64,000 nucleotides of DNA from assembly GCF_014696065.1 (NCBI RefSeq), contig NZ_JACJPL010000024.1, positions 248,001 through 312,000 of the forward strand, in the 5' to 3' direction. The notes beneath the pieces were generated by a model. The model did not search any database and was not told the DNA's origin. It saw only the letters and a program-made list of their open reading frames with translations. Positions 13,274-40,548 of this stretch are shown here, one piece after another. This DNA is from Leptolyngbya sp. FACHB-261. Its GTDB lineage: Bacteria > Cyanobacteriota > Cyanobacteriia > FACHB-261. Within the stretch, counting starts at the first letter, position 1. Every line of letters begins with the position of its first letter. Made by a program: the position numbers and the translations under genes.

Positions 13274-13291
13274 AGCTTATTTGGAAAACAG

Positions 13292-13525: not shown

Positions 13526-13691
13526 TTTGGATATACTCCTACGCGAAATATTTGTTGATATTTGACATTGTATGGATAGAGCGATGCAAAGGGAATCGTT
13601 TGCCCTCTTTTCATCATCCCAGTCTTTGGTCAGACTCTGGCTCAGTTTTTGATCTTCAGGCCATTCCTCAAGCTTGTCTTTGGCACTGAAC

Positions 13692-14366: not shown

Positions 14367-14515
14367 ACTCACTCCGTAGCAGCCTTCAGGAATGGGCTGC
14401 TGCCATCAGAGTAGAGTGCCAACGTAAACAGCAGGTAATCAAAACTTAAAAACTGAGGGGGATGTGTGCCAGATGACAGCACTTCTCAGGTTGCATATGC
14501 TCAGGGCTCAGGTGT

Positions 14516-15943
14516 CTAGGGCTCAGAGGGCAGGGTATGAATTTTGAGAAAGTTGGTGCCCCTAGCTTTCTGCATAGGAGTTCCGCCCAAGATGAGAATG
14601 GCATCGCCAGCACTGGCTAAGTGGTGCTGACGCAAACAAGCTTCGATTTGTTCAATGATGCCTTCTATAGAGCTGGCTGGCTGGTTCAGCAGCATCGGCA
14701 TCACGCCCCAATATAGATTCATTTGACGATAGACAGCGAGGTCAGGGGTCAAGGCAATGAGCGGGGCGCGGGGGCGTTCAGCAGCAGCGAAGCGAGCTGT
14801 ATAACCAGTCGTGGTGAAAGCAGCGATGCAGCGCAAGTCCATGATCTGATCGATGGTGTTAATTGCTTCACTTAGAGCGTGGGTGGCATCAATTTCGGCA
14901 GGGGGCAGGTTAGGAAACTCCAAAATCTGCTCTACTTCTACGGCAATGCGCACCAGCATCTCCACAGCCTGTACTGGAAACTCACCCACCGCTGACTCAC
15001 CGGAGAGCATGACGGCGTCGGTACCATCAAAAATCGCATTGGCGACGTCGCTAGCCTCAGCGCGGGTAGGCCGAGGGTTGCGAATCATACTGTCGAGCAT
15101 CTGCGTGGCTGTAATCACAGGTAAGCCGCGCTCGTTGCAGGCGCGAATAATTCGCTTTTGTAGAATTGGCACTTTCTCGGGGTTGACCTCGACCCCCAAG
15201 TCGCCCCGTGCCACCATCACACCGTCGCATTCGTCCAAAATAGCGTCCAGTTGGGCAACAGCCTGAGGTTTCTCAATCTTTGCCATGACTGGCACCGTTG
15301 CCCCCTTTTCTGCCAGCAGAGCTTTGAGGGCTCGAATATCTTCAGGGTGGCGCACAAAGCTCAGGGAAACCCAGTCCACGCCTTGAGCTAGCCCAAAATC
15401 TAGATCCTGCTTGTCTTTGTCAGTTAGAGAGGGCAAGCGCAGATTGAGGCTGGGCAGATTAACGCCCTTACGGCTTTTAAGAACACCACCACGAACGATC
15501 TGGCAAAGCACAGCGGGTGCTTCAATGGCACTCACAGTCAATTCCAAGAGCCCATCATCAAGCAGCACTCGTGTGCCCGGCTGGGCCTCTTCCGCTAGAA
15601 AGGGATAGTCGATGGGGACGGTATCTGGCTGTTCGGCAAAGTGGTCAATGGGAATCAGGGTTAAGCGACTGCCCTTGTGAAGCGTGATCTCTCCTTGAGG
15701 CAACTGCCCCACCCGAATCTTAGGGCCTTGCAAATCCTGCAGCAGCGTGATTGGCACATCCAGCTCGTCAGACACCGCGCGGATCAGCTTGACTGTGCGC
15801 GCGTGGTCCTCGTAACTGCCGTGGGAGAAGTTCAAGCGGGCAACCGACATGCCCGCCTCGATCAACTGCCGCAGCACCTCTGGGGAGCTGCTGGCAGGGC
15901 CGATCGTTGCGACAACTTTTGTGCGGTGGAGAAATGGGGGCAT
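14516..15943 (-). CDS. pyk: Pyruvate kinase
   Basis: Cytosolic glycolytic enzyme that converts phosphoenolpyruvate and ADP to pyruvate and ATP. The 475-residue protein starts [14 protein letters not shown], has [11 protein letters not shown], the active-site [10 protein letters not shown] with the catalytic Lys, the [12 protein letters not shown] block and [19 protein letters not shown]. It is the standard length and lacks the extra C-terminal PEP-utiliser-like domain carried by another cyanobacterial form. ATG at 15943. Neighbours are unrelated and face away on the upstream side. Confidence 0.95.
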
Positions 15944-16069
15944 GCAATCACCTTTAACATTTGCCTAGCCGGACAAGGTGTTACCGCCCACACTTTAAGC
16001 AGAATGGGTAGGCTGGTTCCAGTTGTCAACTTGGTTTTGTGAGCAGAATGAGCAGCAGAGGACAAAGCG

Positions 16070-16414
16070 ATGTTGGTTGATGAACTTCTGAGACGGTACG
16101 CAGCGGGGGAGCGCAATTTCCGCCGAGCAACCTTGTTTGCTGCTGAGCTGAGCGAAGTGAATCTGAGCGGTGCCGATTTGCGTGGGGCCAATCTAACCGG
16201 AGCCAAACTTGTAGCTGCTAATCTCAGCAAGGTTAAGCTCGGCATGGCCAACCTGACTGGAGCTAAGCTCTCAGTCGCTAACTTGAGTGAGGCTGACCTC
16301 AGTGCAGCTAACCTAGGCGGTGCTGATCTTAGTGGAGCCAAGCTTGAAGGCACATTCCTGGATGGCGCTAAGCTGACAGGCGCGATTATGCCGGATGGCA
16401 GTATTCATGGTTAA
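16070..16414 (+). CDS. Small pentapeptide-repeat protein
   Basis: A 114-residue cytosolic protein. After a 20-residue helical start (MLVDELLRRYAAGERNF), nearly all of it is A(D/N)Lxx pentapeptides such as ADLRGANLTGAKL. This folds as a right-handed quadrilateral beta-helix of about four coils. No catalytic residues are expected; such proteins are very common in cyanobacteria and mostly uncharacterised. Single gene, divergent from pyruvate kinase across a 126-bp gap. Confidence 0.85.
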   Translation: MLVDELLRRYAAGERNFRRATLFAAELSEVNLSGADLRGANLTGAKLVAANLSKVKLGMANLTGAKLSVANLSEADLSAANLGGADLSGAKLEGTFLDGAKLTGAIMPDGSIHG

Positions 16415-16698
16415 GGTCAGGGCTAATTCAGGACTAGTCCAGGGCTAAGTTCGGTAGATACAGCAGCCAAGGCAATCAGTTATTTCCAGGTTCGACTTAG
16501 TCGTCAAAATCTTTTACGACTTTCACCAAAATCCTCACAAGAGCGAAGGCTAATTCTTTCCGTTTTTTACTTGAGCCGCTAGTAGGAAAGCTTTCCAAAC
16601 TTGGCAATCAACTTGCCTTCAAAGTCAATGCGCTACCCGAACTGAACTTCTAGGATGAAAGAGTAAGCAACTTGATAAGCCTAAGGAAGTTCCAAACA

Positions 16699-17196
16699 AT
16701 GACACTACAAAGTGGTTACGTTCTTCTGCCTGGAGAGGGTAAAGCAGTTTGGTCAATGAGCGGTTTGACAACCATTAAAGCTTCTACTGAAACCACTCAA
16801 GGCAGATTTGGCTTATTCGAGCAACTATTGCCCCCAGGCTTTGAACCTCCAGCTCATGTTCATGAGAAGGAAGACGAGGCGTTCTACATTCTGGAAGGGG
16901 AACTCAGCTTCCGTTGTGGCAACCAAAGCGGTCGGGCAACGCCAGGTTCATTTCTATTTTTGCCGCGCGGTGTTGTCCACAGTTTCCGAATTGAAAGTTC
17001 GACTCCTGCCAAAATTCTGATCTTTTGTACTCCCGGTGGCTTCGAGCACTTCTTTGAAGAAATGGGAGAACCGGCACAACAACGCGAATTACCACCTAGG
17101 GAACAGCATGAGCAAGGGCAGCACGAGCCTGAAAAAATCACGCTATTGGCTGCAAAATACAAGCTCTCTTTGAAAGAGCCGCAACTTCAGTCCTAG
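16699..17196 (+). CDS. Cupin-domain protein
   Basis: A 165-residue beta-barrel protein with one cupin_2 domain. Motif 1 is PPAHVHEKEDEAFYILEGEL, with metal-ligand His, His, Glu and a later His in GVVHSF (motif 2). It resembles the quercetin-2,3-dioxygenase-like group with unknown substrate. The C-terminus is Glu/Gln-rich (PPREQHEQGQHEPEK). I chose ATG 16699, preceded by AAGGAAG, rather than an upstream TTG at 16672. A small hairpin (17224-17249) after the stop may end the message. Confidence 0.82.
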   Translation: MTLQSGYVLLPGEGKAVWSMSGLTTIKASTETTQGRFGLFEQLLPPGFEPPAHVHEKEDEAFYILEGELSFRCGNQSGRATPGSFLFLPRGVVHSFRIESSTPAKILIFCTPGGFEHFFEEMGEPAQQRELPPREQHEQGQHEPEKITLLAAKYKLSLKEPQLQS

Positions 17197-17349
17197 ACAG
17201 GAGCGAACCACGATTGCCAGAGGCAAGCCAAGCATATTACGCTGGCTTGACTCTAGCTTTTATCAACCAGTCTTTGCTTAGTAGAAACAACTAATCAAAA
17301 CAATCAGGTTGCCTTCTAGTCTTTGGCTTTGACCGCTAACTTTGCGTTT

Positions 17350-18159
17350 CTAACTTTGTACCTCTAATACTTCCACAGCATCACCGCGACGGACTTCCCC
17401 TATGTTGGTATGAACTAAGTTCTGACCAAAAACAACACCGCTCTTCGCGCGCCGATAAGTGGCTAGTGTGACTAGAGGCTCTTTTCCCCGCTCGGCAGTG
17501 GCTTGGTCTGTAGTTGTGATCGCACAGCGTTCGCACAGTTTGACGCCCCGAAAGGTGGCATTGCCAATGCGCACTGCCCGCCAACCATCTTCAGCATAGG
17601 GCTCACACCCAAACACCACCAAATTCGGTCGAAAGCGGTTCATAGGCAAGGGAATTTCTAACCGCGCGTTGAGATCTCTCAAGGAAGCTTCCGAGATCAC
17701 CAATAACGGATAGGCATCTGCAAAGCTGACCTGAGCGGGTTCGCTAATGTAGTCTGGCTCCACTGGTCGGTCGTAGCCCTCGCCAATGCGCACTAAACGG
17801 CAAGGAGTTTCGAGGAACGTACTTAACCACTCAGCCGCAGCTGAACCCTGGTCAACCGCCTGACATTGATCGTCCCAAACTGTCACCGACAAACGCTCGC
17901 TTGCTATGGGCGCGAGCGGGACGGAGAACTCAGGCATCCCTGGCGATGTCAAGCGCAGACTATCCGGCTCCAAAGCTGTTTTGATCAGAGCCAGACGCGG
18001 AAACGCCCGCTGCGTGAGGAAGCTTCCCTTTTCATCCACAATCAGCCAATTACGGTCATAACGCAGCCCCCAAGTATCTAAGTGGGCTGCATCCAGTTCA
18101 ATGCCAGCACAGGACTTAACCGGGTAGACGTAAATGGCAGATAGAAGGGGCTGAGACAT
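17350..18159 (-). CDS. MOSC-domain protein with MOSC N-terminal barrel
   Basis: A 269-residue protein of the mARC/YcbX type. The MOSC_N beta barrel begins SAIYVYPVKSCAGIELD, and the C-terminal MOSC domain includes the Cys region GVKLCERCAITTTDQ, where the Cys is the molybdenum-cofactor ligand in this family. Relatives reduce N-hydroxylated compounds using molybdopterin, with electrons from a ferredoxin or flavoprotein. No fused 2Fe-2S domain is present, so an external donor is needed. ATG 18159 is preceded by GAGG at eight bases. A Fur-box-like sequence lies about 85 bp upstream. Confidence 0.85.
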   Translation of the reverse strand: MSQPLLSAIYVYPVKSCAGIELDAAHLDTWGLRYDRNWLIVDEKGSFLTQRAFPRLALIKTALEPDSLRLTSPGMPEFSVPLAPIASERLSVTVWDDQCQAVDQGSAAAEWLSTFLETPCRLVRIGEGYDRPVEPDYISEPAQVSFADAYPLLVISEASLRDLNARLEIPLPMNRFRPNLVVFGCEPYAEDGWRAVRIGNATFRGVKLCERCAITTTDQATAERGKEPLVTLATYRRAKSGVVFGQNLVHTNIGEVRRGDAVEVLEVQS

Positions 18160-25513: not shown

Positions 25514-28500
25514 TCATCTTGAAACCAGGCCGTGATGGTCGTAGTTCAAGGTATTTGTAACAGTCTCTAGAAGGCCCTGCTCTAGGTAGGGCTTGGTGAG
25601 ATAGGCGTTAGCGCCTAATTCCAGTGCCATCTGACGGTGCCGGTTGCTGCTGCGGGAGGTCAACATGATCACAGGAATTTGGCTCAAGGCAGGATCTTGG
25701 GCTCGATAGCTCAAGAGTTCAAAACCGTTGAGGCGCGGCATTTCAACATCGCAGATCATCAAACTCACCGCATGTCGTCGCAGTTGCTCCAAGGCTTCTT
25801 GACCATCCCGAGCTTGCACAATCAGGTAGTTCGCCTTTTGCAGCGTTAAGGCGAGGCTTTGGCGCAGCGTAATCGAGTCATCGACTACCAGGATTGTGGG
25901 TCGTCCATTGGCTGGTGCCTTAGGCAATTCCTTCAACAGAGGGGGCTGGGCCAGTTGCCCCGGAGGAAGCGCAGCAGAAGCAGAACTAGGAGGAGCAGGA
26001 GCAGACGGGGACGCCTCAGGTGAGCCCACTAATTGGCTTACTAATTGACCTGGCAATTGACCCGGCAACTGGCCCGGTAATTGCACTAACTGACCCGGCG
26101 CTTGCGACGGAGCAGCCACTGCTGCTTGCTCTAAGACGTAATGAATGAGTGCGGCACCATCCAGGACCAGCGCTAAACGCCCATCCGCCAAGACACTACA
26201 ACCAGAAACATAACTAGGGGGCGCAATCAGAGCCGTACTCACCGACCGGATGACTAGATCTTGTTCGCCTAGAATTTGGTCAACTTCTAGCCCCAAGCTG
26301 TGAATTCCTGATTGCAACAGCAGCAGCGGTTTGGGTAGCAACGTCTCACTGCTGGCATAGAGAGCAATACCTTGGGTCTGGCTCTCAGGCAAAGGTGAAC
26401 TATATGGCAGGAGGTTGGCCAGTTGATGCAGGGGAACTGGATGCTCATCTTCGCCCTTGTACCAATCCAAAACTCTTTGTCCTTGCCAGAGTTGAATCTG
26501 CTCTGCTTCTGGCATCACAATCTGCTCTAGGGCATCGGCAGTAAAGGCGTAAACTGCCCCGCCAGCCTGACAAACAAACAACCGAGAAATGGTCAAGCTG
26601 AGAGGAATTTGCAACGAAAAGGTCGTTCCCTGTTGCAACTGTGAACGCACCGTCACCGAACCTTGCAGGGATTGTAATTGCGATCGAACAACATCCAAGC
26701 CAATACCACGCCCAGATAAATCACTAACCTGGGCCGCCGTGGAGAAGCCAGGTTCAAACAGTAAAATTGAGACCTGCTCGTTAGAGAGATGATCTAGCTC
26801 CTCTGCCGCTAACCAGTTCACTTCGAGCGCTCGGCGGCGGATCTGTTCCGGATTAATTCCTTGCCCATCATCGCTGACTTCGATGATTGTCTTTCTACCC
26901 TGGTGATAGGCGTGGATATGGATTTGTCCGGCGACTGGTTTGTTGTGTTGCAATCGGACTTGACGCGGTTCAATTCCGTGGTCAAAGGCATTGCGGACTA
27001 AATGTAGCAAGGGATCATAAAGTTTTTCAGCAATGGCTTTATCGACCAAAACCTCACTGCCGTGAAGATGCAGCTCAACAGGTTTGTCGTGCACAGCGGC
27101 GAGTTGTTGCAACAGGCGAGGAAAGCGATTAAAAATCGTGCCCAAGGGCAACATTCGCGCTGCAACTAAATCGTCTTGAGTGTTGGTGAGTAGGCGGCGC
27201 TGCTGGTCTAAGACTTGACTGGATTGTTGAACGTGAAAGTCAATTCCCTCAGCGGCTTCTTCGAGTTGCACAGTTTCTTCCCACGCACTCTGTAGAAGCA
27301 CATGAAATTCGCTGTAGGGATCCATTTCAAGGCTGTCGAAGCGATAGAAGGGAGCCTGCTGTGCCCCTGCTAGGGTTTTGACCGGTTGCCGTTGCGGTTT
27401 GGTTACTAATCGGTCTGCCCAGTCGCGGAGCTGACTCAGGGTTTGCTGGTGTCGCTGCAATTGCTGCAGCAATGCCTGAACTGAACTCTGGCTTTGCTCA
27501 TTGCCAAGAGCTTGGCGGTTCTGGTTGGTCAGCAGTTCACCGGCCAGGTAGTTTAGGCGTTCCAATCGCTCTAGCTCGACCCGCACGCTCTGAGCTGGGG
27601 CGCTGGCCTCTTGGGGTTGAGATGCCGGACTAGGACTGAAGCTGGCTGCTTGGGGCGCTGCGGTTGGTGGGGGCGGGGGCTGAAAGCCTGGCTCTAGGTC
27701 TGATAACAGAGTCTCCAGGCTCTCTAGGCCCTCTCCGACCTGTGGCTCAAAACTGGACAGACTCGGCGCTGGCGTTTGATCTGGCCAGCTTTGGTCCGGC
27801 CAAGTTGAATCTTGCTGTATTTGGTCGGCCTCTATTTGGTTGGACCGTGTTGAGTCAGGCTGTGTTGGATCTAGCCAGGATTCGTCGGCCTGTGTTGAGT
27901 CAGGCTGTGTTGGGTCTAACCAAGTCGGGTCGAGCAGTTGCTCCAAAGGCTGTGCCTCTAAAGCCCAACCTTCAGGCGGTAGCTCAGAGCTTTCCTCCAC
28001 AGGCCACTGGCTCACCTCAGCCGTCAAGCTACTAAAGATATCCTCCAGGCTGGGAGTTTCTAAAGTCTCTGCTGCCACCTCTGCGGCGACAGGCTGAGTA
28101 GGAACGATTAAGGCTTGCAGTGCTGGCGATACAGCCCCACCACAGTCCCGGTCCCCCGCCAGTACAGCCGCCTGTCCCTGCTGGAAATCAGCTAGAGCTA
28201 GTTGAGCAATCGTCAGCGCTTGATCAGGGTTGGCGTCGAGCGACTGAAGCGCAGCTTGCGCAATGCTGCCGAATCCTGGCAAGTTTAAAGACTCTGCTAG
28301 ACCAACAAAGACCTCGGCTTGAGTGCGCAGGCTTAAGGCAATGATCCCATCCGAGCCATTTGAGCTATCTAAGCTCTCGGCTTGCGCCACAGTAGTGGCT
28401 AATTGCTCTAAGCGCTTGCTCACTCCAGTTTCGAAGATTGATTGGGTAACATCAAAACCCAATTCGGCAGAGGTTGGAATCTGCGCTTCCTCATCGAAAC

Positions 28501-28906
28501 AATCACCTAACCGGCTCTGAAGTTGTGTAAACACAGCCGCAGCTCGGTCAAAAATTTCTGCCTCATTGATTGCACTGCCGGTGAACTCCGCCATCAGCGG
28601 CAATCGCAAGCATTCATAGCCTTGAAACAGTAGAGCCTCCAACTCTAGGTCAATAACCACATCTGGGTTATAGAGCGACTTGAAGACATTTTCCAGGGAA
28701 TGAGCCACCGTTTTGACCGTCTCAAGCCCCACGCTGGCAGAAGCCCCTTTGAGGGTGTGGGTCATGCGCATGAGGGTGTGCACTTTGGCAATGCTGTAGC
28801 CCTCCCGCAAATTGAGAAGCTCCTGCTCGATGGTTTGCAACAGCTCCGGTGCTTCCATCAAGAAGAAGGCGTAAGTCTGATCTCGAATGCTGGGGTCAGC
28901 GTTCAT
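25514..28906 (-). CDS. CheA-like hybrid histidine kinase (PilL/PixL type)
   Basis: Central kinase of the chemosensory operon, 1130 residues. Hpt domain with His50 in MRMTHTLKGASASVG. A long disordered region from about 330 to 450 has tandem DPTQPDST/DSTWPDQSWPDQ-like repeats. Then come the dimerisation domain, a CheA ATPase (HLVRNAFDHGIEP; VSDDGQGINPEQI; SGRGIGLDVVRSQL), a CheW-like domain, a PGQL-repeat linker, and a C-terminal receiver (VVDDSITLRQ; Asp near 1053 in MICDVEMP; TKPY). ATG 28906 has GGAG seven bases upstream. Last gene of the minus-strand operon; it should phosphorylate its own receiver and the small regulators upstream. Confidence 0.92.
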   Translation of the reverse strand: MNADPSIRDQTYAFFLMEAPELLQTIEQELLNLREGYSIAKVHTLMRMTHTLKGASASVGLETVKTVAHSLENVFKSLYNPDVVIDLELEALLFQGYECLRLPLMAEFTGSAINEAEIFDRAAAVFTQLQSRLGDCFDEEAQIPTSAELGFDVTQSIFETGVSKRLEQLATTVAQAESLDSSNGSDGIIALSLRTQAEVFVGLAESLNLPGFGSIAQAALQSLDANPDQALTIAQLALADFQQGQAAVLAGDRDCGGAVSPALQALIVPTQPVAAEVAAETLETPSLEDIFSSLTAEVSQWPVEESSELPPEGWALEAQPLEQLLDPTWLDPTQPDSTQADESWLDPTQPDSTRSNQIEADQIQQDSTWPDQSWPDQTPAPSLSSFEPQVGEGLESLETLLSDLEPGFQPPPPPTAAPQAASFSPSPASQPQEASAPAQSVRVELERLERLNYLAGELLTNQNRQALGNEQSQSSVQALLQQLQRHQQTLSQLRDWADRLVTKPQRQPVKTLAGAQQAPFYRFDSLEMDPYSEFHVLLQSAWEETVQLEEAAEGIDFHVQQSSQVLDQQRRLLTNTQDDLVAARMLPLGTIFNRFPRLLQQLAAVHDKPVELHLHGSEVLVDKAIAEKLYDPLLHLVRNAFDHGIEPRQVRLQHNKPVAGQIHIHAYHQGRKTIIEVSDDGQGINPEQIRRRALEVNWLAAEELDHLSNEQVSILLFEPGFSTAAQVSDLSGRGIGLDVVRSQLQSLQGSVTVRSQLQQGTTFSLQIPLSLTISRLFVCQAGGAVYAFTADALEQIVMPEAEQIQLWQGQRVLDWYKGEDEHPVPLHQLANLLPYSSPLPESQTQGIALYASSETLLPKPLLLLQSGIHSLGLEVDQILGEQDLVIRSVSTALIAPPSYVSGCSVLADGRLALVLDGAALIHYVLEQAAVAAPSQAPGQLVQLPGQLPGQLPGQLVSQLVGSPEASPSAPAPPSSASAALPPGQLAQPPLLKELPKAPANGRPTILVVDDSITLRQSLALTLQKANYLIVQARDGQEALEQLRRHAVSLMICDVEMPRLNGFELLSYRAQDPALSQIPVIMLTSRSSNRHRQMALELGANAYLTKPYLEQGLLETVTNTLNYDHHGLVSR

Positions 28907-29087
28907 GCAATTCTCCACAGGGCTTTTATTGGCAAGTGCACTTGGAATCGCAACCTTAGAATCGGAACAAAATCGCAACGGTGGCTATGGTGCTGGCTTA
29001 GAGATGACCCTTACAAATAGGACCTTACAGATGGAGCCGCTCGCAGGGACGTTCCAGGGCAAATACAAGGCAGATACAACGATTCAT

Positions 29088-32000
29088 TTATTGGTTGACT
29101 TTGAACTGGCCCACACTGACTTGCAGCTCATCCGCCGTCGCCAGCAACGCGTTGAAGGAGGCAGAGATTTCAGCGGAGTCTCCAGAAGTTTTGTTGGCAA
29201 TTTCCGCCACTGCGGTCATCGATTGGGTAACCGATTGCGCCTGCTCATTTTGTAGAAGTGCCGTTTGGGTGATGTCCTCAACGAGTTGGCTAATCTTGGC
29301 TGTGGCCGCGACGATATCGTTTAGACTTTGGCGAGTTTCGTTGACCAAATCAGTTCCAGCCACGACTCGCTGAATCCCCGTTTCCATCGCCGCCGCAACC
29401 GCACTGGTTTCGCTTTGAATCTCCTGCACCAGCTTCTCGATGTCGGTGGTTGCAGCTGCAGATTGCCGCGCTAAAGAACGAACCTCATCCGCCACCACAG
29501 CGAAACTACGCCCATACTCACCGGCACGGGTAGCTTCAATCGAAGCGTTCAGCGCCAGCAATTGAGTTTGCGCTGTGAAGTTGCTAATCAGGCTCACGAC
29601 CTTGAAAATCTTCTGGGAGGATTCGCTCAGACGCTTGATTTTCTTGCCTGTTTCAGCCACCGTTTCACGGATTTCTAAAATGCCATCGACCGTGCGGTTC
29701 ATGGCGACATCACCGGCATGTACCGTCTGATTGGCCTGCTGAACTGCCACTTTGACCTGTTGCGCGCTGGCTGATACTGCCTGAGTTGAGCCACTCATGA
29801 GTTGGATCTGCTCAAGAGTTTGAGCAATCTCTCGAAACTGCTGAGACGCTTGATTGGACAAGCCTTCTAAAGCCACTTTGCTACTGCGCGAGGTCAGCGA
29901 CACATTGGCCGCCGCCGTTTGCATTTGCATCACAACTTGGCGCAGGCTTTGAATGGTTGTGTTGTAGGCGTCGGCAATTGTGCCCACTTCATCCTCGGTG
30001 ACTGGTGCTCGCACCGTCAGGTCGCCACCTAGAACTGGACGCACAGAAGCCAACACCTGAACAGCGTGGTTCTGAAGTTGCTCTTTGGCTGCTTTTTCTC
30101 GCTCTGCAGCCTCAGCAAGTTGCTGTGACTTTAGTCGCAGTTGTTCGAGGTATTCTGCCTGTTGCAAAGCGACGCCGAACTGAGTGCCGATTTGCACCAT
30201 CACATTGACATCTAGCTCTTCCCATTGTCGGGGGCCAGAGTTTTGATAAGCCGCCAACAGCCCCCAGAGTTTGTTCCCTTGAAGAATTGGCACAATGACA
30301 TAGGCTCGGGCTTCATACCGTTCCAATACATCTAAGTAGCAGCCTGGAAAGCCCGCTTGATAAATGTCATTGACAACCTTAAAACGGGCTCCTCTGCCGT
30401 AGGCACCGCCTTTAGTATCTTGTAAATAGGTGTCTACTGGTCTGAGCTGGTCTTGACCCAGGTATTTAGCACTGCACTCCGAGATATTTGCTTCAAACGT
30501 GCCGTTCTCCTGTTTATCTTGTAGGAGAGACATCCAACCACTAGCAACAGACTCAGCTACAAACTTCCCGCTCCAATCTGGCTCAAACCGATAAACTACT
30601 ACCCGTTCAGCTTGGAGCAGACTGCGAACTTCTTTGGTGGTGGTTTTGAAAATGATATCAAGGTCAAGGGTTCTGCGGATCTTGTCAATGACTTTAGAGA
30701 CTAAGCGCTCTCGTTCGGCGACTTTAGCTAGTTGTGTGGACTGGGCTCGCAGTTGATCCAGGTATTCAGTTTGTTGCAAAGCTACGCCTAACTGGGTGCC
30801 GATTTGCGTCAGCAGTTTGACTTCTTCTTCTTCCCAATGCCGAGGCCCACTATGCTGGAAGGCCGACAGCAGTCCCCAAAGTTTTTGCCCTTGAACAATA
30901 GCAACGACCAAACAAGATTTAACGCCGAAGTTCTCTAGAGCTTCAACGTGGCAGTCGGTCAGACCCGCAGTGTAAACGTCATCAACGACTAGCGGTTCGT
31001 TGCTGCGGAACCTACCGCCTTGGTGTTCGTTGAGATAGGGATCTTCCCAGCCACTACCCACTAGTTTCGGCCAGCCGCCGGACTCAGACTCCACCACAAA
31101 ATCGCCGAAGTAGTCTGGGCGGAATTTGTAGATCGCTAAACGCTCTACCCCCAACAGTTGCCGAACTTCTTGCGCTGTGGTTCTGAAGATAGTGTCGATG
31201 TCTTGAGCTTGACGAATCTTGTCAATGACCTTGGTGGCTGCTTGTTCCCGTTCGGCAACCTGCTTGAGCTGCTTAGACTGCGCTTTGAGCTGTTCCAGGT
31301 ATGTAATTTGCTTCAAGGCAGCGTTGAATTGGGCAACGATTTGCTCTAGCAAATAGATCTCTGATTTCTCCCAGTTGCGTGGGCCAGAGTTTTGGTAAAC
31401 CCCTAGCAAACCCCAAAGCTTTTCATCCTCAAAAAGCGGCACAATCAGGTAAGCTCGGACCTCAAACTGCTCCAAGATCTCAACGTGGCAGAGTGAGTGG
31501 CCTGCCTGATGAATATCATTGACCGCAAAGGTTTCATGATGCCGATAGCGGCCCCCCTGCGTTTCCTGTAAATGGCTGTCTTCCCAAATTGTTTTGATAT
31601 TCGGTCCAACCAGTTTCACCCAACTAGCGCCCACAGATTCTGAGATAAATTCGCCGCTCCAGTTGGCATCGAAACGGTAAATAGCAACGCGGTCAGCCCG
31701 TAATAGATTGCGAACTTCTTGAGTAGTCGTCTTGAAGATAGCCTCTAAGTCAAGGGATTGCCTGATTTTGTTCAGGATCTTCGTAACCGACTGTTCTTGT
31801 TGAGTCTGAAGTTGCAGTTTGGCGCGAAATTCCAGCGGCTGCAAGGCAACCGTTAGCCTGGTTGCAACCTGGTAGAGCAGATTGATCTCTGCTTCCTCCC
31901 AACGGCGCGGCGCAGCGCATTGCTGGACCACAAGCAAGCCCCAGATTTGACCTTCAAACCAAATCGGTAGACTCAAGCTAGCCTTGACTTGCAGTTCCTC

Positions 32001-32600
32001 CAGCAGTTTCAACTGGTAGGGGCTAAGCTCAGCCGCATAGATATTACTGATGGCGACGACTTGCTGCTCATATTCCGCGGCTTGGTCAGCGCCAAAACAA
32101 AGAACTGGCAAGGTTTCACCGAGCGATGGTGCCCACTTCCGGCTGACCGCCTCGGCGATGACTGTGCCCTGGCTTTCGGAACTGAGACGATAGATCAGCA
32201 CCCGATCCGCTTGCAAATAATGGCGGATCTCAGCTGCCGTTAGCTTCAGCAAATTGTCCAGATCTTGGCCCTGCCCCAAGTGCCGCGTAATGGACAGCAG
32301 TTTTTCCCGCTCCGCTTTCAGTTGTCGTTCAGTGGCTTCGGTCCAACTGGCCAGAAACTGCTTGCGGACACCAGCGATAAAATTTTCAATTTGTGTAACT
32401 TTAAGTTCTAAAGCAGACTTCTCTGGCTCTGCCGTTTTCTCCAGCTCTGATTTGAGCGAGGAAACAACAGCACTGATTTGTTGAAAAGGGGAGCTAGGAT
32501 TCGCTAGGTTCTGAGTGCCATTAGTGCCATTAGTGCCGTTAGTGCCGTTAGTGCCATCGATTGGCTTTGAAGTGGCTTCAGACTGATGCAGCATGGACAT
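29088..32600 (-). CDS. Soluble methyl-accepting receptor with four GAF domains, three cyanobacteriochrome-like (PixJ-like)
   Basis: Photo/chemoreceptor of 1170 residues. After a (NGT)n start and coiled coil come GAF1 (about 109-254), GAF2 (281-432), GAF3 (461-610), GAF4 (640-813), a HAMP-like segment (851-905) and the MCP signalling hairpin (TQLLALNASIEATRAGEYGR). GAF2 has the red/green cyanobacteriochrome pattern IWEDSHLQETQGGRY plus HSLCHVEILEQF (Cys371-His372). GAF3 has GWEDPYLNEHQGGRF and LTDCHVEALENF (Cys550). GAF4 has Cys754-Tyr755 and an extra Cys709 in an insert (NISECSAKYLG). GAF1 has Tyr195 where the bilin Cys should be. No transmembrane helix is visible, unlike classical PixJ. Third to fourth position in the operon, between cheW and cheA, so it controls phototaxis or pilus motility. 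Confidence 0.9.
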   Translation of the reverse strand: MSMLHQSEATSKPIDGTNGTNGTNGTNGTQNLANPSSPFQQISAVVSSLKSELEKTAEPEKSALELKVTQIENFIAGVRKQFLASWTEATERQLKAEREKLLSITRHLGQGQDLDNLLKLTAAEIRHYLQADRVLIYRLSSESQGTVIAEAVSRKWAPSLGETLPVLCFGADQAAEYEQQVVAISNIYAAELSPYQLKLLEELQVKASLSLPIWFEGQIWGLLVVQQCAAPRRWEEAEINLLYQVATRLTVALQPLEFRAKLQLQTQQEQSVTKILNKIRQSLDLEAIFKTTTQEVRNLLRADRVAIYRFDANWSGEFISESVGASWVKLVGPNIKTIWEDSHLQETQGGRYRHHETFAVNDIHQAGHSLCHVEILEQFEVRAYLIVPLFEDEKLWGLLGVYQNSGPRNWEKSEIYLLEQIVAQFNAALKQITYLEQLKAQSKQLKQVAEREQAATKVIDKIRQAQDIDTIFRTTAQEVRQLLGVERLAIYKFRPDYFGDFVVESESGGWPKLVGSGWEDPYLNEHQGGRFRSNEPLVVDDVYTAGLTDCHVEALENFGVKSCLVVAIVQGQKLWGLLSAFQHSGPRHWEEEEVKLLTQIGTQLGVALQQTEYLDQLRAQSTQLAKVAERERLVSKVIDKIRRTLDLDIIFKTTTKEVRSLLQAERVVVYRFEPDWSGKFVAESVASGWMSLLQDKQENGTFEANISECSAKYLGQDQLRPVDTYLQDTKGGAYGRGARFKVVNDIYQAGFPGCYLDVLERYEARAYVIVPILQGNKLWGLLAAYQNSGPRQWEELDVNVMVQIGTQFGVALQQAEYLEQLRLKSQQLAEAAEREKAAKEQLQNHAVQVLASVRPVLGGDLTVRAPVTEDEVGTIADAYNTTIQSLRQVVMQMQTAAANVSLTSRSSKVALEGLSNQASQQFREIAQTLEQIQLMSGSTQAVSASAQQVKVAVQQANQTVHAGDVAMNRTVDGILEIRETVAETGKKIKRLSESSQKIFKVVSLISNFTAQTQLLALNASIEATRAGEYGRSFAVVADEVRSLARQSAAATTDIEKLVQEIQSETSAVAAAMETGIQRVVAGTDLVNETRQSLNDIVAATAKISQLVEDITQTALLQNEQAQSVTQSMTAVAEIANKTSGDSAEISASFNALLATADELQVSVGQFKVNQ
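32515..32560. repeat. 9-bp tandem repeat encoding Asn-Gly-Thr repeats
   Basis: Five near-identical 9-bp units (plus strand GTGCCATTA or GTGCCGTTA) inside the 5' end of the receptor gene. On the coding strand they give DGTNGTNGTNGTNGT. Slippage-prone; the copy number keeps the reading frame. Confidence 0.8.
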
Positions 32601-32708: not shown

Positions 32709-33278
32709 TTAGCGATGACAAGTCTGCCAGAGAGGAGCCCGAGCGATCGCAACAACATCAAGAACGGCGCTGCCAGATTCAGTCAAGTACCCCTGGATAA
32801 AGGGCAAAAGTCTGGATGGGAAAAGAGCAGCAGTAGCAGGCTGAATTTGCCGAATTTCATGCGGCTCAATGTCATTGACTTGCGGCACCACTAAGCCTAG
32901 AACTTGGTTGCGGATCTGCACCGTGATCACCATCCGAGTTGCCCAAGCTTCCACAGTGGACAGAGCCTGAGGTAAGCCTAGAAACTGGTCTAAATCGACT
33001 AGCCACAGCATCTCCCCTCGCCAGTTGTAAAGGCCCAGGACACAACCGGGCATCTGCGGCACTGGCAAGATTTCTGAGCTAGCGATCTTGAGTACCTGTG
33101 TAATCACATCCACAGCGAGCAAGGCGGTATCTTGCCCTAGGCGAAAGCGTAAGAATTTTTGTTCAGATTCTCCAGGATCAGCTGCTACAGACGCTAGAGT
33201 TGCGTCCAGATCTGCAGCCCGTTCTAAAGGCGAGGTAGGATTTACAGATAGTGCCTGCTTAACAGAATTCGACATCAT
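32709..33278 (-). CDS. CheW-like coupling protein (PilI/PixI type)
   Basis: Scaffold protein of 189 residues that links the receptor to the CheA-like kinase. The CheW fold starts about residue 38 (EQKFLRFRLGQDTALLAVDVI), with VPQMPGCVLGLYNWRGEMLWLVDL as the signature and GLVVPQVNDI later. The first 35 residues are an extra flexible leader. Double ATG start (33278). Lies between the pilH-like gene (19 bp upstream) and the receptor gene on the minus strand. Confidence 0.9.
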   Translation of the reverse strand: MMSNSVKQALSVNPTSPLERAADLDATLASVAADPGESEQKFLRFRLGQDTALLAVDVITQVLKIASSEILPVPQMPGCVLGLYNWRGEMLWLVDLDQFLGLPQALSTVEAWATRMVITVQIRNQVLGLVVPQVNDIEPHEIRQIQPATAALFPSRLLPFIQGYLTESGSAVLDVVAIARAPLWQTCHR

Positions 33279-33297: not shown

Positions 33298-33663
33298 CTA
33301 AAGCTTAATCAGTTGTCGGACAACTGTGAGCAGTTGTTGAGGGTCCACCGGTTTAGGCAAATAGGCATCTGCGCCCAACATATTGCCCCAAATTCGGTCA
33401 ACTTCGGTGCTCTTAGTGGAGCACATCACGACAGGAATTTGGCTGGTCACCGGATTCTTTTTCAGCTCTCGACACAGCTCAAAACCGCTTTGGCCCGGCA
33501 GAATTACATCTAGAACAATCAGGTCCGGCTTTTGAAAGCCCAGCTTCGATATGGCCTCCTCACCGCTGCGCACACACACGACTGAAATCCCCAATTGCTT
33601 GAGATAACGCGACATCAATTCCGCATCAGTCAAGCTATCTTCCACCAGTAAGACAGTGTTCAC
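33298..33663 (-). CDS. CheY-like response regulator (PilH/PixH type)
   Basis: Single receiver domain of 121 residues. VEDSLTDAEL supplies the acidic pair, the phospho-acceptor is in LIVLDVILPGQSG, the switch Ser is in VMCSTKS, and the Lys is in YLPKPVDP. GTG 33663 gives the normal length and has AAGGTGA just upstream; a TTG seven codons earlier is less likely. It follows the PatA-like gene by about 26 bp and precedes cheW by 19 bp. Confidence 0.9.
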   Translation of the reverse strand: MNTVLLVEDSLTDAELMSRYLKQLGISVVCVRSGEEAISKLGFQKPDLIVLDVILPGQSGFELCRELKKNPVTSQIPVVMCSTKSTEVDRIWGNMLGADAYLPKPVDPQQLLTVVRQLIKL

Positions 33664-33689
33664 AAGATCACCTTTCGGAAACAATAAAT

Positions 33690-35003
33690 TTAGGACAGAG
33701 CGGCTTTTTGAGCACTAGTAGGCAGAGGTAAATATTTGCGCAGCAGTGTCAATATCCGTTGGGCTTCAATCGGTTTAGCCAGAAAATCTGATGAACCGAC
33801 CACCTTAGCTCGGACTCGATCCACAATGCCGTCATTCCCCGTCAAGATAATCACAGGCGTTTTCTTGAAAATAGAAACCCTGCGAATCTGTGCGCAAATC
33901 TCATAGCCACTGGCAATGGGCATTACCAGATCCAAAAAGATCAGATTAGGCTTAGTTTCTAGCAGGATAGGTAGGGCCTGTAAGGGATCTTGAATCCCCA
34001 CAAACTGGTAGCCAGACTGAAGCAAAATCGACTCCATCAAGCGGCAGTCCATCGGGCTGTCATCAACGCAAGCGATCAATAATTGGGGCTGGTCCCCTGT
34101 TGGCTGATTGGAAATTGGCTGATTGGGATTTGACTGATTGGGTGCTGACTGATTAGGACCATTAACCTGGGATCGACCTGGTTCTGCAGCCGGGTTAGAC
34201 TTCGGGCCAGTGTTTGAGCCAACGTCTGAGCCAGCCTTTGGGCCAACCTTTGAATCAGTGCTTGTCTTTGGGGAAGCGAGATCAGGAATAGCCACCAGTC
34301 CCATAGTCCCCTTGTGAATGTAGGGCATCAGTGACTGAGTCAACACCAATAGGTCCTTCCTCATCAGAATGGCTAAATCTCGGAGCGTCCGTTTGCCATC
34401 CATGATCGCGACAAGCGTCTGGTAGAGACTGGGTGAAACTTGCCTTTGTAATTGCTCAGGCTGCTGAACAATCGGCGCTAAATTTGGCGAACAGTTCTTC
34501 AGCCCCGCGCGGCACCAAGCATCCCAAACTTGTTGAGTGGCTTGGAGTGCATGTTCAGTATTAATCAGTGCCAGGGACGACTCTAAGCTGTCCTGCTGGA
34601 AACAGGTAAAGGTCAATTGCTCAGCCTGTTCCCGTTGCTTGACATCAAACAATGCCTCGGCCACGGCACCGCGAATCAAAGCAGCCGCTTGCTCTCCTGT
34701 AATCATCTGCCGCTTGGCAAGGGTGAGCAGCGCCCGGTAATCCCAGTAGCCTTGGTGGCCATCGGGCGAAAAGCTAAGGGCGGCGTTCAGGTCCAGTTTG
34801 GGACAATGCTGCGAGAGCAGCCGATAGCGGGCTCGAACGGGGTGTAAGCCGCCCTTAACCCAAACTAAACGCCCGGAAGACAAATAGAATCGCCATTGCA
34901 ACCCACTTGCAGCTTGGACATCAAGCCAACCTGAAAACTGAAGCTGCCGAAGCGATTGAAGTTGGCTATCAAGGCCGTCAAGGGCTTGATGAACAGAGGT
35001 CAT
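33690..35003 (-). CDS. PatA-family response regulator (PilG/PixG type)
   Basis: First gene of the operon, 437 residues. The N-terminal 240 residues are a PATAN/DUF4388-type domain (LRQLQFSGWLDVQAASGLQW, then SGRLVWVKGG). A disordered Asn/Gln/Pro-Ser linker (SAPNQSNPNQPISNQ) precedes a C-terminal receiver (IACVDDSPMDCRLM; Asp in LIFLDLVMPIASG; LAKPIEA). In cyanobacteria, PATAN-receivers bind pilus motors or ATPases to set movement direction. Upstream lies a 350-bp gap that should contain the operon promoter. Confidence 0.9.
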   Translation of the reverse strand: MTSVHQALDGLDSQLQSLRQLQFSGWLDVQAASGLQWRFYLSSGRLVWVKGGLHPVRARYRLLSQHCPKLDLNAALSFSPDGHQGYWDYRALLTLAKRQMITGEQAAALIRGAVAEALFDVKQREQAEQLTFTCFQQDSLESSLALINTEHALQATQQVWDAWCRAGLKNCSPNLAPIVQQPEQLQRQVSPSLYQTLVAIMDGKRTLRDLAILMRKDLLVLTQSLMPYIHKGTMGLVAIPDLASPKTSTDSKVGPKAGSDVGSNTGPKSNPAAEPGRSQVNGPNQSAPNQSNPNQPISNQPTGDQPQLLIACVDDSPMDCRLMESILLQSGYQFVGIQDPLQALPILLETKPNLIFLDLVMPIASGYEICAQIRRVSIFKKTPVIILTGNDGIVDRVRAKVVGSSDFLAKPIEAQRILTLLRKYLPLPTSAQKAALS

Positions 35004-35355: not shown

Positions 35356-37017
35356 TCACAGCCCCAAGTCCGCCCGTGCTGCTGCTGCTGCTTGCGCAAC
35401 CACGTCAAGCGGCAGTTCTTGCCAAGCCGTTTCGCCCACCTCAGCATAGAACTGCTGGTCATAGGCCCGCGTTTGCATCACTACGGGCATCGGCACTGCG
35501 TGACCCAGCACCAGCGCTTGCTGTTTGGAGTCCAATTTAGCCAGCACCGCACGCAAATTTTGCCCGCCGGAGACGCCTGTAAAGATCGCCTCAATATCTT
35601 TTTCGTCATTGAGCAGGGCAGTAATCCGTGTGCCAATCTGCGACATCACCTCGTTGTCGATTCCAGAAGGACGCTGATCGACAATCAGTAAGGTCACAAA
35701 ATATTTGCGCATCTCACGGGCAATCGTGCCAAAAATCGTCTGCCTGGCAATCGCTGGGTCTAGAAATTTATGCGCTTCCTCGATGGTGATCACCAGTTGC
35801 CGGGGTCGGTCGCTGGGATTTTTGGTCTGCAAAAAGTGCTCTGCCTTGCGCACATAGCTAGCGTGAATGCGGCGGGTGATCACGTTGGTTGCCAGCATGT
35901 AGGCCAGCAGATTTGATTGCGAACCAAACTCAATCACCACATGCTTACCCGATTCCAGGGCATCTAAAATCTGCGCCACATAGTTATGAGGGCAGGCGCT
36001 ACGCATATATTTCAGCCCGTCCAGCCGTGTGAGCTTGCGCTGCAAGGCCATGATTGAAGATTTAGAGCCCATTTTGGTTTCGCAGAACTCTTGAATCTCC
36101 TGATTGGACAGGCTCAGCAGCCGGGTAATCCAACTTTTTCCAAACTCATTGCGCAGGATAATTGCGTTCTCTAAACTGGCCTCCGAGAGGTTTAGCTCAC
36201 TGCTGACCAGCATCAAATCTTCGACTTCGATCTGGTCGTAGCTGATGTAGAGCTCCTGGGCATCACGTACGCCACGCCGTTGGGTGGATTCGGCATCTAG
36301 GGTGTAGACCTGAACCTCACTGGGAAACAGTTGCCGCAGACCTTTGACCGTGTGAAAATGCTTGCCCTCCGCTGCCGCTTCCCAGCCGTATTCTGAATGC
36401 ATATCGAAGATTAGATTCACCGCAGCCCGCTTGCGAATAATGCCGGACAGCAACAGGCGAGTCAAAAACGATTTGCCGGTGCCCGACTTACCAAACACGC
36501 CGTTGCTGCGTTCGACAAAGCGGTCGAGATCCAGACAAATCGGCACCGCCATATCGATAGGCTGCCCCACCGAAAAGTTACGGCGGTGCGGATCATCTTC
36601 CCAGCCAAACACCACCCGAAAATCGCGTTCTGAAGCGTCGTAAACCTGGCTAAAGTGACTGGGCACCGTTTTGACCGGCAGCAATTCTAAGGTCGGCGAA
36701 CTGCCATCATCCAGGTTGGAATCGCTGATGAACATCAGCATTGGCGTTAAGCTCACAGTGCCAAAGGTACCGGTTCCCGCCAAAACTTCAGTGAGAAAAG
36801 TATTGCTAGGGTCGGGAGGATTCGACAAAATTCGTGCGCTAGCAGTGCCCAGTTTCACATCGGTCAGAATGCAAAAAAAGCGAGTGCGCTGGCCCTGCAC
36901 CACCAGAAATTTTCCCACTCGCATTTCTTCCACTGAAACATCCGGATGCAACCGGACTTCAATGCCTTCACTCAAAGATCCCTGGATCACCGATCCCAAG
37001 GGGCGCAGCATTTCCAT
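35356..37017 (-). CDS. HerA-like ATPase (DUF87 / FtsK-HerA superfamily)
   Basis: A 553-residue ATPase. The N-terminal HAS-barrel-like domain (residues 1-150; FLVVQGQRTRFFCILTDVKL) precedes the motor: Walker A GVFGKSGTGKSFLTRLL, a DMHSEYGW block, Walker B RQLVITIEEAHKFL, and sensor/arginine region ITALLNDEKDIEAI. HerA hexamers pump DNA, usually with the nuclease NurA; no nurA is adjacent here. ATG 37017 preferred to TTG 37026. It is divergent from nadC with about 70 bp between starts. Confidence 0.88.
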   Translation of the reverse strand: MEMLRPLGSVIQGSLSEGIEVRLHPDVSVEEMRVGKFLVVQGQRTRFFCILTDVKLGTASARILSNPPDPSNTFLTEVLAGTGTFGTVSLTPMLMFISDSNLDDGSSPTLELLPVKTVPSHFSQVYDASERDFRVVFGWEDDPHRRNFSVGQPIDMAVPICLDLDRFVERSNGVFGKSGTGKSFLTRLLLSGIIRKRAAVNLIFDMHSEYGWEAAAEGKHFHTVKGLRQLFPSEVQVYTLDAESTQRRGVRDAQELYISYDQIEVEDLMLVSSELNLSEASLENAIILRNEFGKSWITRLLSLSNQEIQEFCETKMGSKSSIMALQRKLTRLDGLKYMRSACPHNYVAQILDALESGKHVVIEFGSQSNLLAYMLATNVITRRIHASYVRKAEHFLQTKNPSDRPRQLVITIEEAHKFLDPAIARQTIFGTIAREMRKYFVTLLIVDQRPSGIDNEVMSQIGTRITALLNDEKDIEAIFTGVSGGQNLRAVLAKLDSKQQALVLGHAVPMPVVMQTRAYDQQFYAEVGETAWQELPLDVVAQAAAAARADLGL

Positions 37018-37086
37018 GCAATCCAATACCTTTCGGGCACCGTAATCTGCGACTATATTAATCCTCTGAGTTCACATTTGACATTT

Positions 37087-38625: not shown

Positions 38626-40548
38626 ATGAAAATCTTAAAGCTTCCTTACCCAATTGCAGCCGCAGCCTTAGCAACCACAACAGCTGTCGCTGGCTTCTGC
38701 CTTGATGCCAAAGCTGCAACTTTTAACGGTAGTTCTAATTTTGCAGATCTGATTAGCCTGCTCGGTTCAACCAAACAAGGGCCGATGGCACGGGTGGGAA
38801 CCGACTTAAGCTCCCTCTACGTTCGACACACAAACGGTCTGCCGGTCTTGCCGTCGTCATCGTTGCAACTGTACGGCGATCAAGTAAGAATTAACGCCAT
38901 TGCCGCTGGCAGCACCCAAACCCTGTTCGCCGATCTAAACAACTTGGGACTGCAAGGGGGTTCGACTTACGGCTCTCTGGTGTCAGGCTTATTGCCCGTT
39001 GCATCAATTGATGACCTGGCTCAGCTCAATAGTCTGCAATTTGCCCGTCCTACCTACCGCCCGATCAGCAACGTCGGTTTAGTCACCGGTCAGGCCGATA
39101 TTGCTGTGCGCGCAGATGTGGCCCGTGAGCGGTTTGGCGTGGATGGCAGCGGGGTTAAGGTTGGCATTTTGTCAGACAGCTTCGACTTTTTGGGTGGCGC
39201 GGCAACCGATGTGGCCACGGGTGATCTGCCGCCGGATGTGGAGGTGCTCAAAGAATTGCCACTGGATGACCCCTTTGGCGGCATTGATGAGGGGCGGGCG
39301 ATGGCACAGCTAATCTACGACCTCGCGCCCGGTGCTGATCTGGCCTTTCATACTGCCTTTCTGGGAGCAGCGGACTTTGCTCAGGGCATTCTCGATTTGG
39401 CCGCGGCTGGCTCCGATATTATCGTGGACGATATTGGCTATCTCGAAGAACCGTTCTTTCAAGATGGCGTAATTGCTCAAGCCGTGGACGAAGTTGTGGC
39501 TGATGGCGTGGCCTACTTCTCTGCTGCCGGTAACGATGCTCGCAATAGTTATGAGAGTCCTTTTAATGCCAGCGGTCTAGTCGATCCTCTGTTTGGTGAG
39601 CTTCACGATTTTGATCCGACAGCAGGCATCGACACGCTGCAAAGTATTACCATCCCCGAGGGCAATAGTATTGTGCTGAGCTTCCAGTGGGATCAACCCT
39701 TTGCCTCACTCGGCAGTGAGGGCTCGGCTAGCGATCTGGATATTCTGCTGTTTGATGAGTCTGGCACTAACCTCCTGGCTGGCAGCACAGAGTCTAATAT
39801 CGGGGCTGATCCGCTAGAAATTTTCGAATTTGAGAACGACGGCTCGTTTGGCAGCGACCAGTTCAACCTGGCGATTACCAATCTGACAGGCCCCAATCCT
39901 GGGCTGATGAAGTACATTCTGTTCGGTCTTCGCGGCAGCATCAATGAATTCGATACCGCTAGCGGTACGGTCTTCGGTCATCCCAATGCTGAGGGAGCCG
40001 AGGCGGTGGGCGCTGCGCCCTACTTCCTCACGCCAGAATTCGGTGTCAACCCGCCAATCCTCGAACCCTTCTCCTCAGCCGGTTCGGTGCCCATCCTGTT
40101 CGACTCGGAAGGCAACCGTTTGGCCCAGCCAGAGATTCGCTTAAAGCCCGAAATTGTGGCTCCCGATGCCGTCAACAACACGTTCTTTCCACCCTTTCCA
40201 GGCTCAGATCTTGAAGGTGATGGCTTCCCCAATTTCTTTGGCACTTCGGCGGCAGCTCCCAACGCGGCGGCGGTGGCAGCCCTGGTGCTAGAGGCCAATC
40301 CAGACCTCAGCCCACAGGAACTCTACAGAATTCTGGAGCGAACAGCCATTGATATGGATGACCCCAGCACGCCAGGTTTCGACCGAGGCTTTGACTTTGC
40401 CAGTGGCTTTGGTTTGATTCAAGCGGATCGGGCGGTTGCGGCGGCAACTTCTGTGCCGGAACCCACGACAAGCTTTGGTCTGCTGGCATTGGCCTTGGGG
40501 GCGGGTTCAGCGCTGAAGCGTAAGGGCAAGGTCGCACCTAGCCGATAG
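38626..40548 (+). CDS. PEP-CTERM subtilase-like protein with a Glu-for-His active site
   Basis: Secreted 640-residue protein. Signal peptide at residues 1-30 (cleavage near DAKAA). The peptidase S8-like domain has Asp184 in VGILSDSFD, then DEGRAMAQLIYDLAPGADLAF, where the catalytic His position is Glu222. The oxyanion Asn303 is in FSAAGND and the nucleophile Ser541 in FFGTSAAAPNAAAVAAL. Asp-Glu-Ser resembles the sedolisin-type chemistry inside a subtilisin-like frame, a subgroup I have seen described only as S8/S53 family. The C-terminus VPEPTTSFGLLALALGAGSA with a basic end is a PEP-CTERM sorting tail, so the protein is probably processed by an exosortase-like system and exported. Confidence 0.85.
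   Translation: MKILKLPYPIAAAALATTTAVAGFCLDAKAATFNGSSNFADLISLLGSTKQGPMARVGTDLSSLYVRHTNGLPVLPSSSLQLYGDQVRINAIAAGSTQTLFADLNNLGLQGGSTYGSLVSGLLPVASIDDLAQLNSLQFARPTYRPISNVGLVTGQADIAVRADVARERFGVDGSGVKVGILSDSFDFLGGAATDVATGDLPPDVEVLKELPLDDPFGGIDEGRAMAQLIYDLAPGADLAFHTAFLGAADFAQGILDLAAAGSDIIVDDIGYLEEPFFQDGVIAQAVDEVVADGVAYFSAAGNDARNSYESPFNASGLVDPLFGELHDFDPTAGIDTLQSITIPEGNSIVLSFQWDQPFASLGSEGSASDLDILLFDESGTNLLAGSTESNIGADPLEIFEFENDGSFGSDQFNLAITNLTGPNPGLMKYILFGLRGSINEFDTASGTVFGHPNAEGAEAVGAAPYFLTPEFGVNPPILEPFSSAGSVPILFDSEGNRLAQPEIRLKPEIVAPDAVNNTFFPPFPGSDLEGDGFPNFFGTSAAAPNAAAVAALVLEANPDLSPQELYRILERTAIDMDDPSTPGFDRGFDFASGFGLIQADRAVAAATSVPEPTTSFGLLALALGAGSALKRKGKVAPSR

Follow-up and report, generated by a model that had tools for sequence, protein, structure and literature searches.

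The receptor operon

We analysed 64 000 nucleotides from Leptolyngbya sp. FACHB-261 (contig NZ_JACJPL010000024.1, positions 248 001–312 000), hereafter called the window. Its minus strand carries a row of five genes, among them one for a chemoreceptor with four GAF domains (29088–32600). The product of this gene belongs almost certainly to the PixJ/PtxD-type family of cyanobacteriochrome chemoreceptors, and three of its GAF domains are predicted to represent three colour classes: red/green, far-red and insert-Cys. The five genes, from pixG to pixL, are separated by gaps of 5, 19, 108 and 109 bases:

33690–35003, minus strand: pixG-like gene, DUF4388 plus receiver (PATAN-type response regulator); open reading frame (ORF) and Pfam
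33298–33684, minus strand: pixH-like single-domain response regulator; ORF and Pfam
32709–33278, minus strand: pixI-like CheW; ORF and Pfam
29088–32600, minus strand: pixJ-type receptor gene, GAF1-GAF2-GAF3-GAF4-HAMP(partial)-MCP, where MCP is the methyl-accepting chemotaxis protein domain; ORF with ATG start, 1170 amino acids (aa)
25514–28978, minus strand: pixL-like CheA with Hpt, dimerisation, HATPase, CheW and receiver domains; ORF and Pfam

Translation of the pixL-like gene more likely starts at an in-frame ATG (28906) than at the TTG. The pixG-like product is one which we take to be of PATAN type, by analogy, from its DUF4388 domain and the position of its gene. The same pixG-H-I-J-L order was found again around most of the relatives that were fetched. 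A first-pass annotation of the window had proposed a phototaxis-type operon (patA-like, pilH-like, cheW, receptor, cheA), and this arrangement was borne out on the minus strand by ORFs and Pfam.

Pfam recognized four GAF stretches in the receptor (whole-protein E = 8e-91) and an MCPsignal domain (3.8e-39), with a HAMP match below the cut-off. Family membership is indicated by the fusion of an MCP output to GAF domains bearing the bilin-binding Cys and by the neighbourhood of PATAN-type receiver, receiver, CheW, receptor and CheA. No transmembrane stretch was found in the receptor by hydropathy (maximum 19-residue mean of 1.46); the protein is therefore probably soluble, and a transmembrane receptor like PixJ1 was ruled out on the same ground. 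Its parts are:

31815–32318, minus strand: GAF1, residues 95–262, without bilin Cys, SPYQ at the site (Pfam, alignment)
31275–31808, minus strand: GAF2, residues 265–442, assigned to the red/green type (PDB match, tree); C371-H372 codons at 31485–31490
30741–31262, minus strand: GAF3, residues 447–620, assigned as far-red, JSC1_58120g3-like (PDB match, tree, AlphaFold2 model)
31035–31058, minus strand: GSGWEDPY of GAF3, with the C550-H551 codons at 30948–30953 (sequence)
30123–30737, minus strand: GAF4, residues 622–826, assigned to the insert-Cys type (tree, motifs, AlphaFold2 model); C754-Y755 codons at 30336–30341
30435–30533, minus strand: insertion loop of GAF4, residues 690–722, with the second Cys in C709-S-A-K at 30465–30476 (motif rule from PMC5240096)
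30423–30434, minus strand: D723-T-Y-L of GAF4, directly after the loop (motif)
29937–30029, minus strand: partial HAMP, residues 858–888 (Pfam 19.7 bits, cut-off 25)
29196–29669, minus strand: MCP signalling domain, residues 978–1135 (Pfam MCPsignal)

The annotation had also claimed three cyanobacteriochrome-like GAF domains in one chemoreceptor. This agrees with our results: the bilin Cys is kept in GAF2, GAF3 and GAF4, and all three fall in known cyanobacteriochrome clades. Every residue that it had named was in place (C371-H372, C550-H551, C754-Y755, Y195 and WED at 339 and 518), as were LQETQGGRY after WED339 in GAF2 and NEHQGGRF at 524 in GAF3. Its assignment of GAF2 and GAF3 as red/green or far-red is upheld by identity, tree position and diagnostic columns, GAF2 being placed with the red/green domains and GAF3 in the far-red lineage. 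The extra Cys that it had seen beside Cys754-Tyr755 of GAF4 is C709, which places this domain in the insert-Cys subfamily.

Relatives used for comparison

Relatives were sought in a class-wide search of 388 genomes, in which the whole receptor had matches in 66 at 1e-150 and GAF3 in 74 at 1e-50. Sixty fetched stretches gave set A, comprising 62 frames (the window receptor included) with 266 GAF domains, to which four references were added; 40 further loci formed set B. Members of both sets were picked by similarity to the window receptor or to GAF3, and the GAF3 search enriched set A for far-red GAF domains. The tree was built from 107 of 130 selected GAF domains after 23 near-copies had been dropped, and its bootstrap was not fully settled (correlation 0.983). 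A search of plasmids for relatives returned only matches of <60% identity, and a scan of genome contigs with patterns peculiar to the query returned one distant MCP only.

Classification of the GAF domains

GAF1 had been described as having lost its Cys. The absence of a bilin Cys stands, with Y195 at the site; a recent loss was discarded as the simplest reading because a Cys-less GAF domain comes first in 52 of the 62 frames of set A, 35 of these 52 having an SPYQ-like motif ([TS]P[YH][QR]) at the site. In the tree, GAF1 has a very long branch and was unplaced. From this pattern, a conserved structural or dimer-forming role appears more likely than a recently lost sensor.

For GAF2 the best match among all PDB chains was NpR6012g4 (E = 2e-76), with identities over aligned columns of 66.7% to NpR6012g4 and 60.6% to AnPixJg2. 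The tree groups it with the red/green references NpR6012g4, AnPixJg2 and slr1393g3 (support 95/93), and it carries the Cys-His, the lid Trp, the beta2 Phe and the helix-4 Phe of that class. The CH and WED motifs and both Phe residues are common to GAF2, NpR6012g4 and AnPixJg2 (PDB 6bhn and 3w2z), and no notable difference was seen at the residues checked. GAF2 is very probably a red/green cyanobacteriochrome that would bind phycocyanobilin (PCB) and switch between red and green states.

GAF3 had JSC1_58120g3 of Leptolyngbya sp. JSC-1 as its best match among all PDB chains (E = 2.1e-72; identity 71.5%) and lies with it in a well-supported far-red clade of 29 rows (100/99), with an inner clade of 22 rows (96/84). 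The first three fold matches of its AlphaFold2 model (predicted local distance difference test (pLDDT) score 92.4) were 6xhg and 6xhh, both structures of JSC1_58120g3. GAF3 has the far-red letter at all 16 clade-diagnostic columns (those where far-red GAF domains agree and differ from red/green ones), a test that is partly circular because GAF3 was the query that brought in many of the far-red domains. A second test avoids this by drawing its 20 columns from the references only: at each of them three red/green references share one letter and JSC1_58120g3 has a different one. GAF3 sides with JSC1_58120g3 at 15 of these columns and with the red/green references at 4, and has a third letter at 1. 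The corresponding counts (JSC1/red-green/other) were 1/14/5 for GAF2, 2/13/5 for GAF4 and 3/7/9 plus one gap for GAF1. It is thus likely, as judged from these comparisons, that GAF3 senses far-red light.

Which bilin GAF3 would use is a separate question. JSC1_58120g3 is reported to take biliverdin or 18(1),18(2)-dihydrobiliverdin but not PCB or other bilins with a reduced A-ring (PMC10151467); within the far-red clade, a verdin chromophore is reported for this domain only. JSC1_58120g3 belongs to a sub-clade of 15 rows (99/87) with an insert of ~16 residues just before TDCH wherever the segment is readable. GAF3 is without the 16-aa insert and outside the sub-clade, and it is mainly the absence of the insert that raises doubt about GAF3 sharing the bilin choice of JSC1_58120g3. 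Verdin specificity might be confined to the insert-bearing sub-clade, GAF3 then being a PCB binder, either red/green-like or far-red with PCB; the four red/green-like columns fit this, and PCB is expected to be the abundant bilin since the genome encodes PcyA. Against it stand the 15 of 20 reference-only and 16 of 16 clade-diagnostic columns of far-red type and the support for the 29-row clade, and we consider such a PCB-binding GAF3 possible, on the doubtful side. A verdin (biliverdin or 18(1),18(2)-dihydrobiliverdin) rather than PCB is mildly favoured as the chromophore. GAF3 would then sense far-red light most likely with a verdin and possibly with PCB. Expression with PCB only may give a false negative for this domain because its closest studied relative rejects PCB.

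GAF4 shares 53.8–55.3% identity over aligned columns with NpR6012g4 and AnPixJg2, and lies in a clade of 23 rows (99/92), 22 of which are insert-Cys by the motif rule (a loop Cys plus the canonical Cys) and 1 is not. In GAF4 the loop Cys, C709, stands ahead of a D-x-Y-L that replaces DXCF, and the canonical Cys is C754. In the insert-Cys subfamily the loop Cys belongs to a CXXR/K motif that is only weakly conserved (PMC5240096); GAF4 has it (C709-S-A-K), and K or R is found at +3 in 20 of the 41 insert-Cys GAF domains of set A. Since all 41 have Cys-Tyr as the canonical-site dipeptide, Cys-Tyr with an extra Cys is the usual look of this subfamily. In set B and the loci from the window's own genome, the rule gave 26 domains with Cys-Tyr and 3 with Cys-His, at least one of the latter (GAF2 of the L174 receptor, described below) being a false positive without a long insertion. 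On these motifs, GAF4 is highly likely to be a dual-Cys domain, in which C709 would form a second, light-labile bond to the bilin; a reversible second thioether to bilin C10 is a feature of the class.

Insert-Cys domains are known in three colour types, namely near-UV/green, violet/orange and UV/blue (PMC5240096). UG1 (Mbr3854g4) of Microcoleus B353, with D739-T-Y741-L, beta2 F684 and helix-4 Y777, has a near-UV (384 nm)/green (560 nm) cycle (PMC5240096). By spacing, that is, by arithmetic on the printed residue numbers of UG1, GAF4 has a corresponding D723-T-Y725-L and the near-UV/green tuning pair F680/Y762, which occurs in 18 of the 41 insert-Cys domains of set A; a loop Cys with CXXK is likewise common to both. 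UG2 (Mbl3738g2) from the same organism, also compared through published residue numbers only, has the same distance from loop Cys to Asp as GAF4. We therefore weighed whether GAF4 is dual-Cys with a violet/orange cycle (like NpF2164g3) or a UV/blue cycle (like NpR1597g2). All three types exist in the subfamily and the C709–D723 loop length equals that of UG2 (14) and not that of UG1 (26) by published numbering, whereas the residues reported to tune colour, F680 and Y762, are those of UG1. These other colour pairs are a substantial possibility, if short of an even chance; a near-UV/green pair is a plausible assignment on sequence grounds, at just under even odds. In general terms, one state of GAF4 would lie in the near-UV/violet and the other in the green-to-orange range.

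Combination of classes and spacing of the domains

By motif class, red/green, far-red and insert-Cys GAF domains occurred together in 3 of the 62 frames of set A: the window receptor, L090 (genome G026, seven GAF domains) and L154 (genome G318). Far-red domains were present in 27 of the 62 frames, in a set enriched for them. The triple combination was found in none of the 46 frames of set B and the own-genome loci (one of which, L217, repeats L106), and a literature search limited to the listings of papers brought up no description of it. Each of the three receptors has its classes in a different order, and the colour classes are thus, on the sequences sampled, shuffled freely between receptors.

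Two conserved residues served as markers for the spacing of successive GAF domains: the Trp towards the end of the first domain and the Tyr towards the start of the second. One mod-7 class holds 178 of 205 spacings in set A and 107 of 130 in set B, mainly 74 and 81. With identical pairs counted once, the class holds 279 of 327 unique spacings (119 at 74, 143 at 81, 11 at 67 and 6 at 95), although spacings of related receptors are not independent. A quick tree gave 59 inferred spacing changes, of which 31 were multiples of seven (28 of them ±7), and the distance from the last GAF domain to the MCP tip was the same in 69 of 70 cases. With spacings of 74, 81 and 81, the window receptor fits the main heptad class, as expected of continuous coiled-coil signalling.

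The heptad-linker idea is already known, and what we add is the spacing count in these receptors. A review describes heptad-periodic linkers and takes regularly spaced PAS/GAF tandems, including cyanobacteriochromes, to imply signal-integrating coiled coils; it also reports that the engineered kinase YF1 gives an inverted response with 7n+1 linkers (PMC6798134). Among the 48 spacings that break the heptad rule, 20 are in the 7n+1 class (e.g. 89 and 96). This favoured class corresponds to the phase reported to invert YF1 signals and is worth a separate study.

Signalling, output and weight of the evidence

In the proposed mechanism, each photoswitch would twist or tilt the long helices joining the GAF domains in the dimer, and signals would travel in line along the HAMP-like segment as far as the MCP tip; in-line signalling is suggested because the GAF linkers keep one heptad phase. 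The MCP with CheW would alter the kinase activity of the PixL-like CheA, and the two response regulators would then bias movement driven by type IV pili. The genome encodes a single heme oxygenase, a single bilin reductase, which is PcyA (NF002760 equivalog, 344 bits, cut-off 206), and an adjacent pair of T2SSE-family ATPases of PilB/PilT type and size, so that PCB, its precursors and pili should be present.

By analogy with known loci, a phototaxis output of the operon is probable. The operon could instead control something other than the direction of phototaxis, e.g. piliation, aggregation or the level of cyclic di-GMP, and the genome has two or more other Che operons of comparable composition, so roles may be split. 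The genes stand in the order known from the tax1/pix and ptx loci, mutants of which are reported no longer to show normal phototaxis (PMC5812497), and we regard a different output as unlikely.

The best overall explanation, and one that we hold to be reasonably probable from the sequence comparisons, is a soluble multi-colour PixJ/PtxD-type receptor with red/green, far-red and dual-Cys GAF domains in a phototaxis operon. Several observations weigh against it: (i) GAF3 keeps the red/green letter at 4 of 20 reference-only columns, lacks the 16-aa insert and is outside the sub-clade of JSC1_58120g3; (ii) the match of GAF4 to UG1 and UG2 comes from published residue numbers only; (iii) in the AlphaFold2 model of GAF4 (pLDDT 87.6), model residues 89–103, which are receptor residues 710–724, score under 50, and with a low-confidence loop around C709 the reach of C709 to the bilin is putative; (iv) 48 of the 327 spacings fall outside the main heptad class; and (v) in Synechocystis PixJ1, only the second GAF domain is reported to bind PCB (PMC5812497). 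The last point raises the alternative of a single working sensor, the other GAF domains being structural or non-photoactive, as reported for PixJ1. The Cys-less GAF1 would suit it, whereas GAF2, GAF3 and GAF4 each retain the Cys and class-specific pocket residues, and PtxD is reported there with bilin on at least six of seven GAF domains; a single sensor is accordingly judged improbable.

Although multi-GAF phototaxis receptors are already known, the way in which several photoswitches control a single output is not understood. The window receptor is compact, with three switches of three classes in a soluble protein and a range predicted to extend from near-UV to far-red, and it makes two ideas testable, namely two kinds of bilin in one receptor and in-line addition of signals by heptad-phased linkers. 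We tentatively suggest, as a conjecture with appreciably less than an even chance, that one polypeptide holds two bilins, PCB in GAF2 and GAF4 and an unreduced verdin (dihydrobiliverdin or biliverdin, from the substrate side of PcyA) in GAF3, and that heptad-locked spacing lets colour modules be added, dropped or swapped without a change in the sign of the output, the rarer 7n+1 spacing being the sign-inverting phase. If this is true, a two-bilin receptor would read from near-UV to >700 nm; the extent to which GAF3 is loaded would, in addition, reflect the pool of PcyA intermediate. An insert-free far-red GAF domain of the JSC1 lineage also offers a shorter scaffold for finding what sets verdin choice.

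Other loci in the window and in the genome

The genes pixJ, pixL and pixG contain short tandem repeats whose periods (9, 12 and 15 bases) are all multiples of three. These repeats and two further genes are located as follows:

32514–32557, 26043–26083, 27847–27916, 34100–34158 and 34206–34253: tandem repeats; those at the pixJ start give NGT repeats
35356–37026, minus strand: HerA-like ATPase (HAS barrel, DUF87), on the strand of the operon and immediately upstream of it
38626–40548, plus strand: predicted secreted 640-aa protein; PEP-CTERM-like C-terminal tail and subtilase-like motifs recognized by eye in the translation

Elsewhere in the genome, a second Che operon (L173, G000:C15:176500-196000, at 8009–17622) encodes a DUF4388-like plus receiver protein, a receiver, CheW, an MCP, CheA and a further CheW. 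Its MCP receptor has ~1040 aa, a hydrophobic N-terminal half and one Cys-less GAF domain, and pcyA lies ~2.5 kb upstream of this operon on the opposite strand. A third (L174, G000:C20:82000-98000, at 2857–10976, minus strand) encodes a receiver protein, CheW, an 890-aa MCP and CheA, the MCP having two GAF domains, one with DPCF plus Cys-His and one with DTYF plus Cys-His. Light input may be split over several Che systems in this genome.

Signs of far-red photoacclimation were also sought in the genome: one PF00124 protein was found, a standard D1, and no ChlF-like paralogue, an absence that proves nothing as D2 was not found either and the psaB-like sequences are incomplete. Across the loci concerned (L177, L178 and L171), the photosystem genes look incomplete in the assembly: besides the single D1 and the missing D2 there were two distinct psaB-like C-terminal pieces, each running off the edge of its locus. 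Among 36 genomes, psbA was near psbD in several with far-red GAF domains and also in two (G160 and G380) without one in the receptors examined.

Comparison with known systems

PixJ1/TaxD1 of the Synechocystis tax1 locus is described as an MCP receptor in a set of PATAN-receiver, receiver, CheW, MCP and CheA, as here (PMC5812497); it has two transmembrane domains and two GAF domains, whereas the window receptor has four GAF domains and nothing transmembrane-like. PtxD (NpF2164) of Nostoc punctiforme, described in that paper as required for hormogonium phototaxis, is likewise an MCP with many cyanobacteriochrome GAF domains, including the insert-Cys NpF2164g3, encoded beside cheY, cheW and cheA as here (PMC5812497, PMC5240096). 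Compared by description only, PtxD has no far-red-lineage GAF domain in the accounts found. It has seven GAF domains, at least six of them reported to bind bilin (PMC5812497), whereas the window receptor has four, three of them with the Cys.

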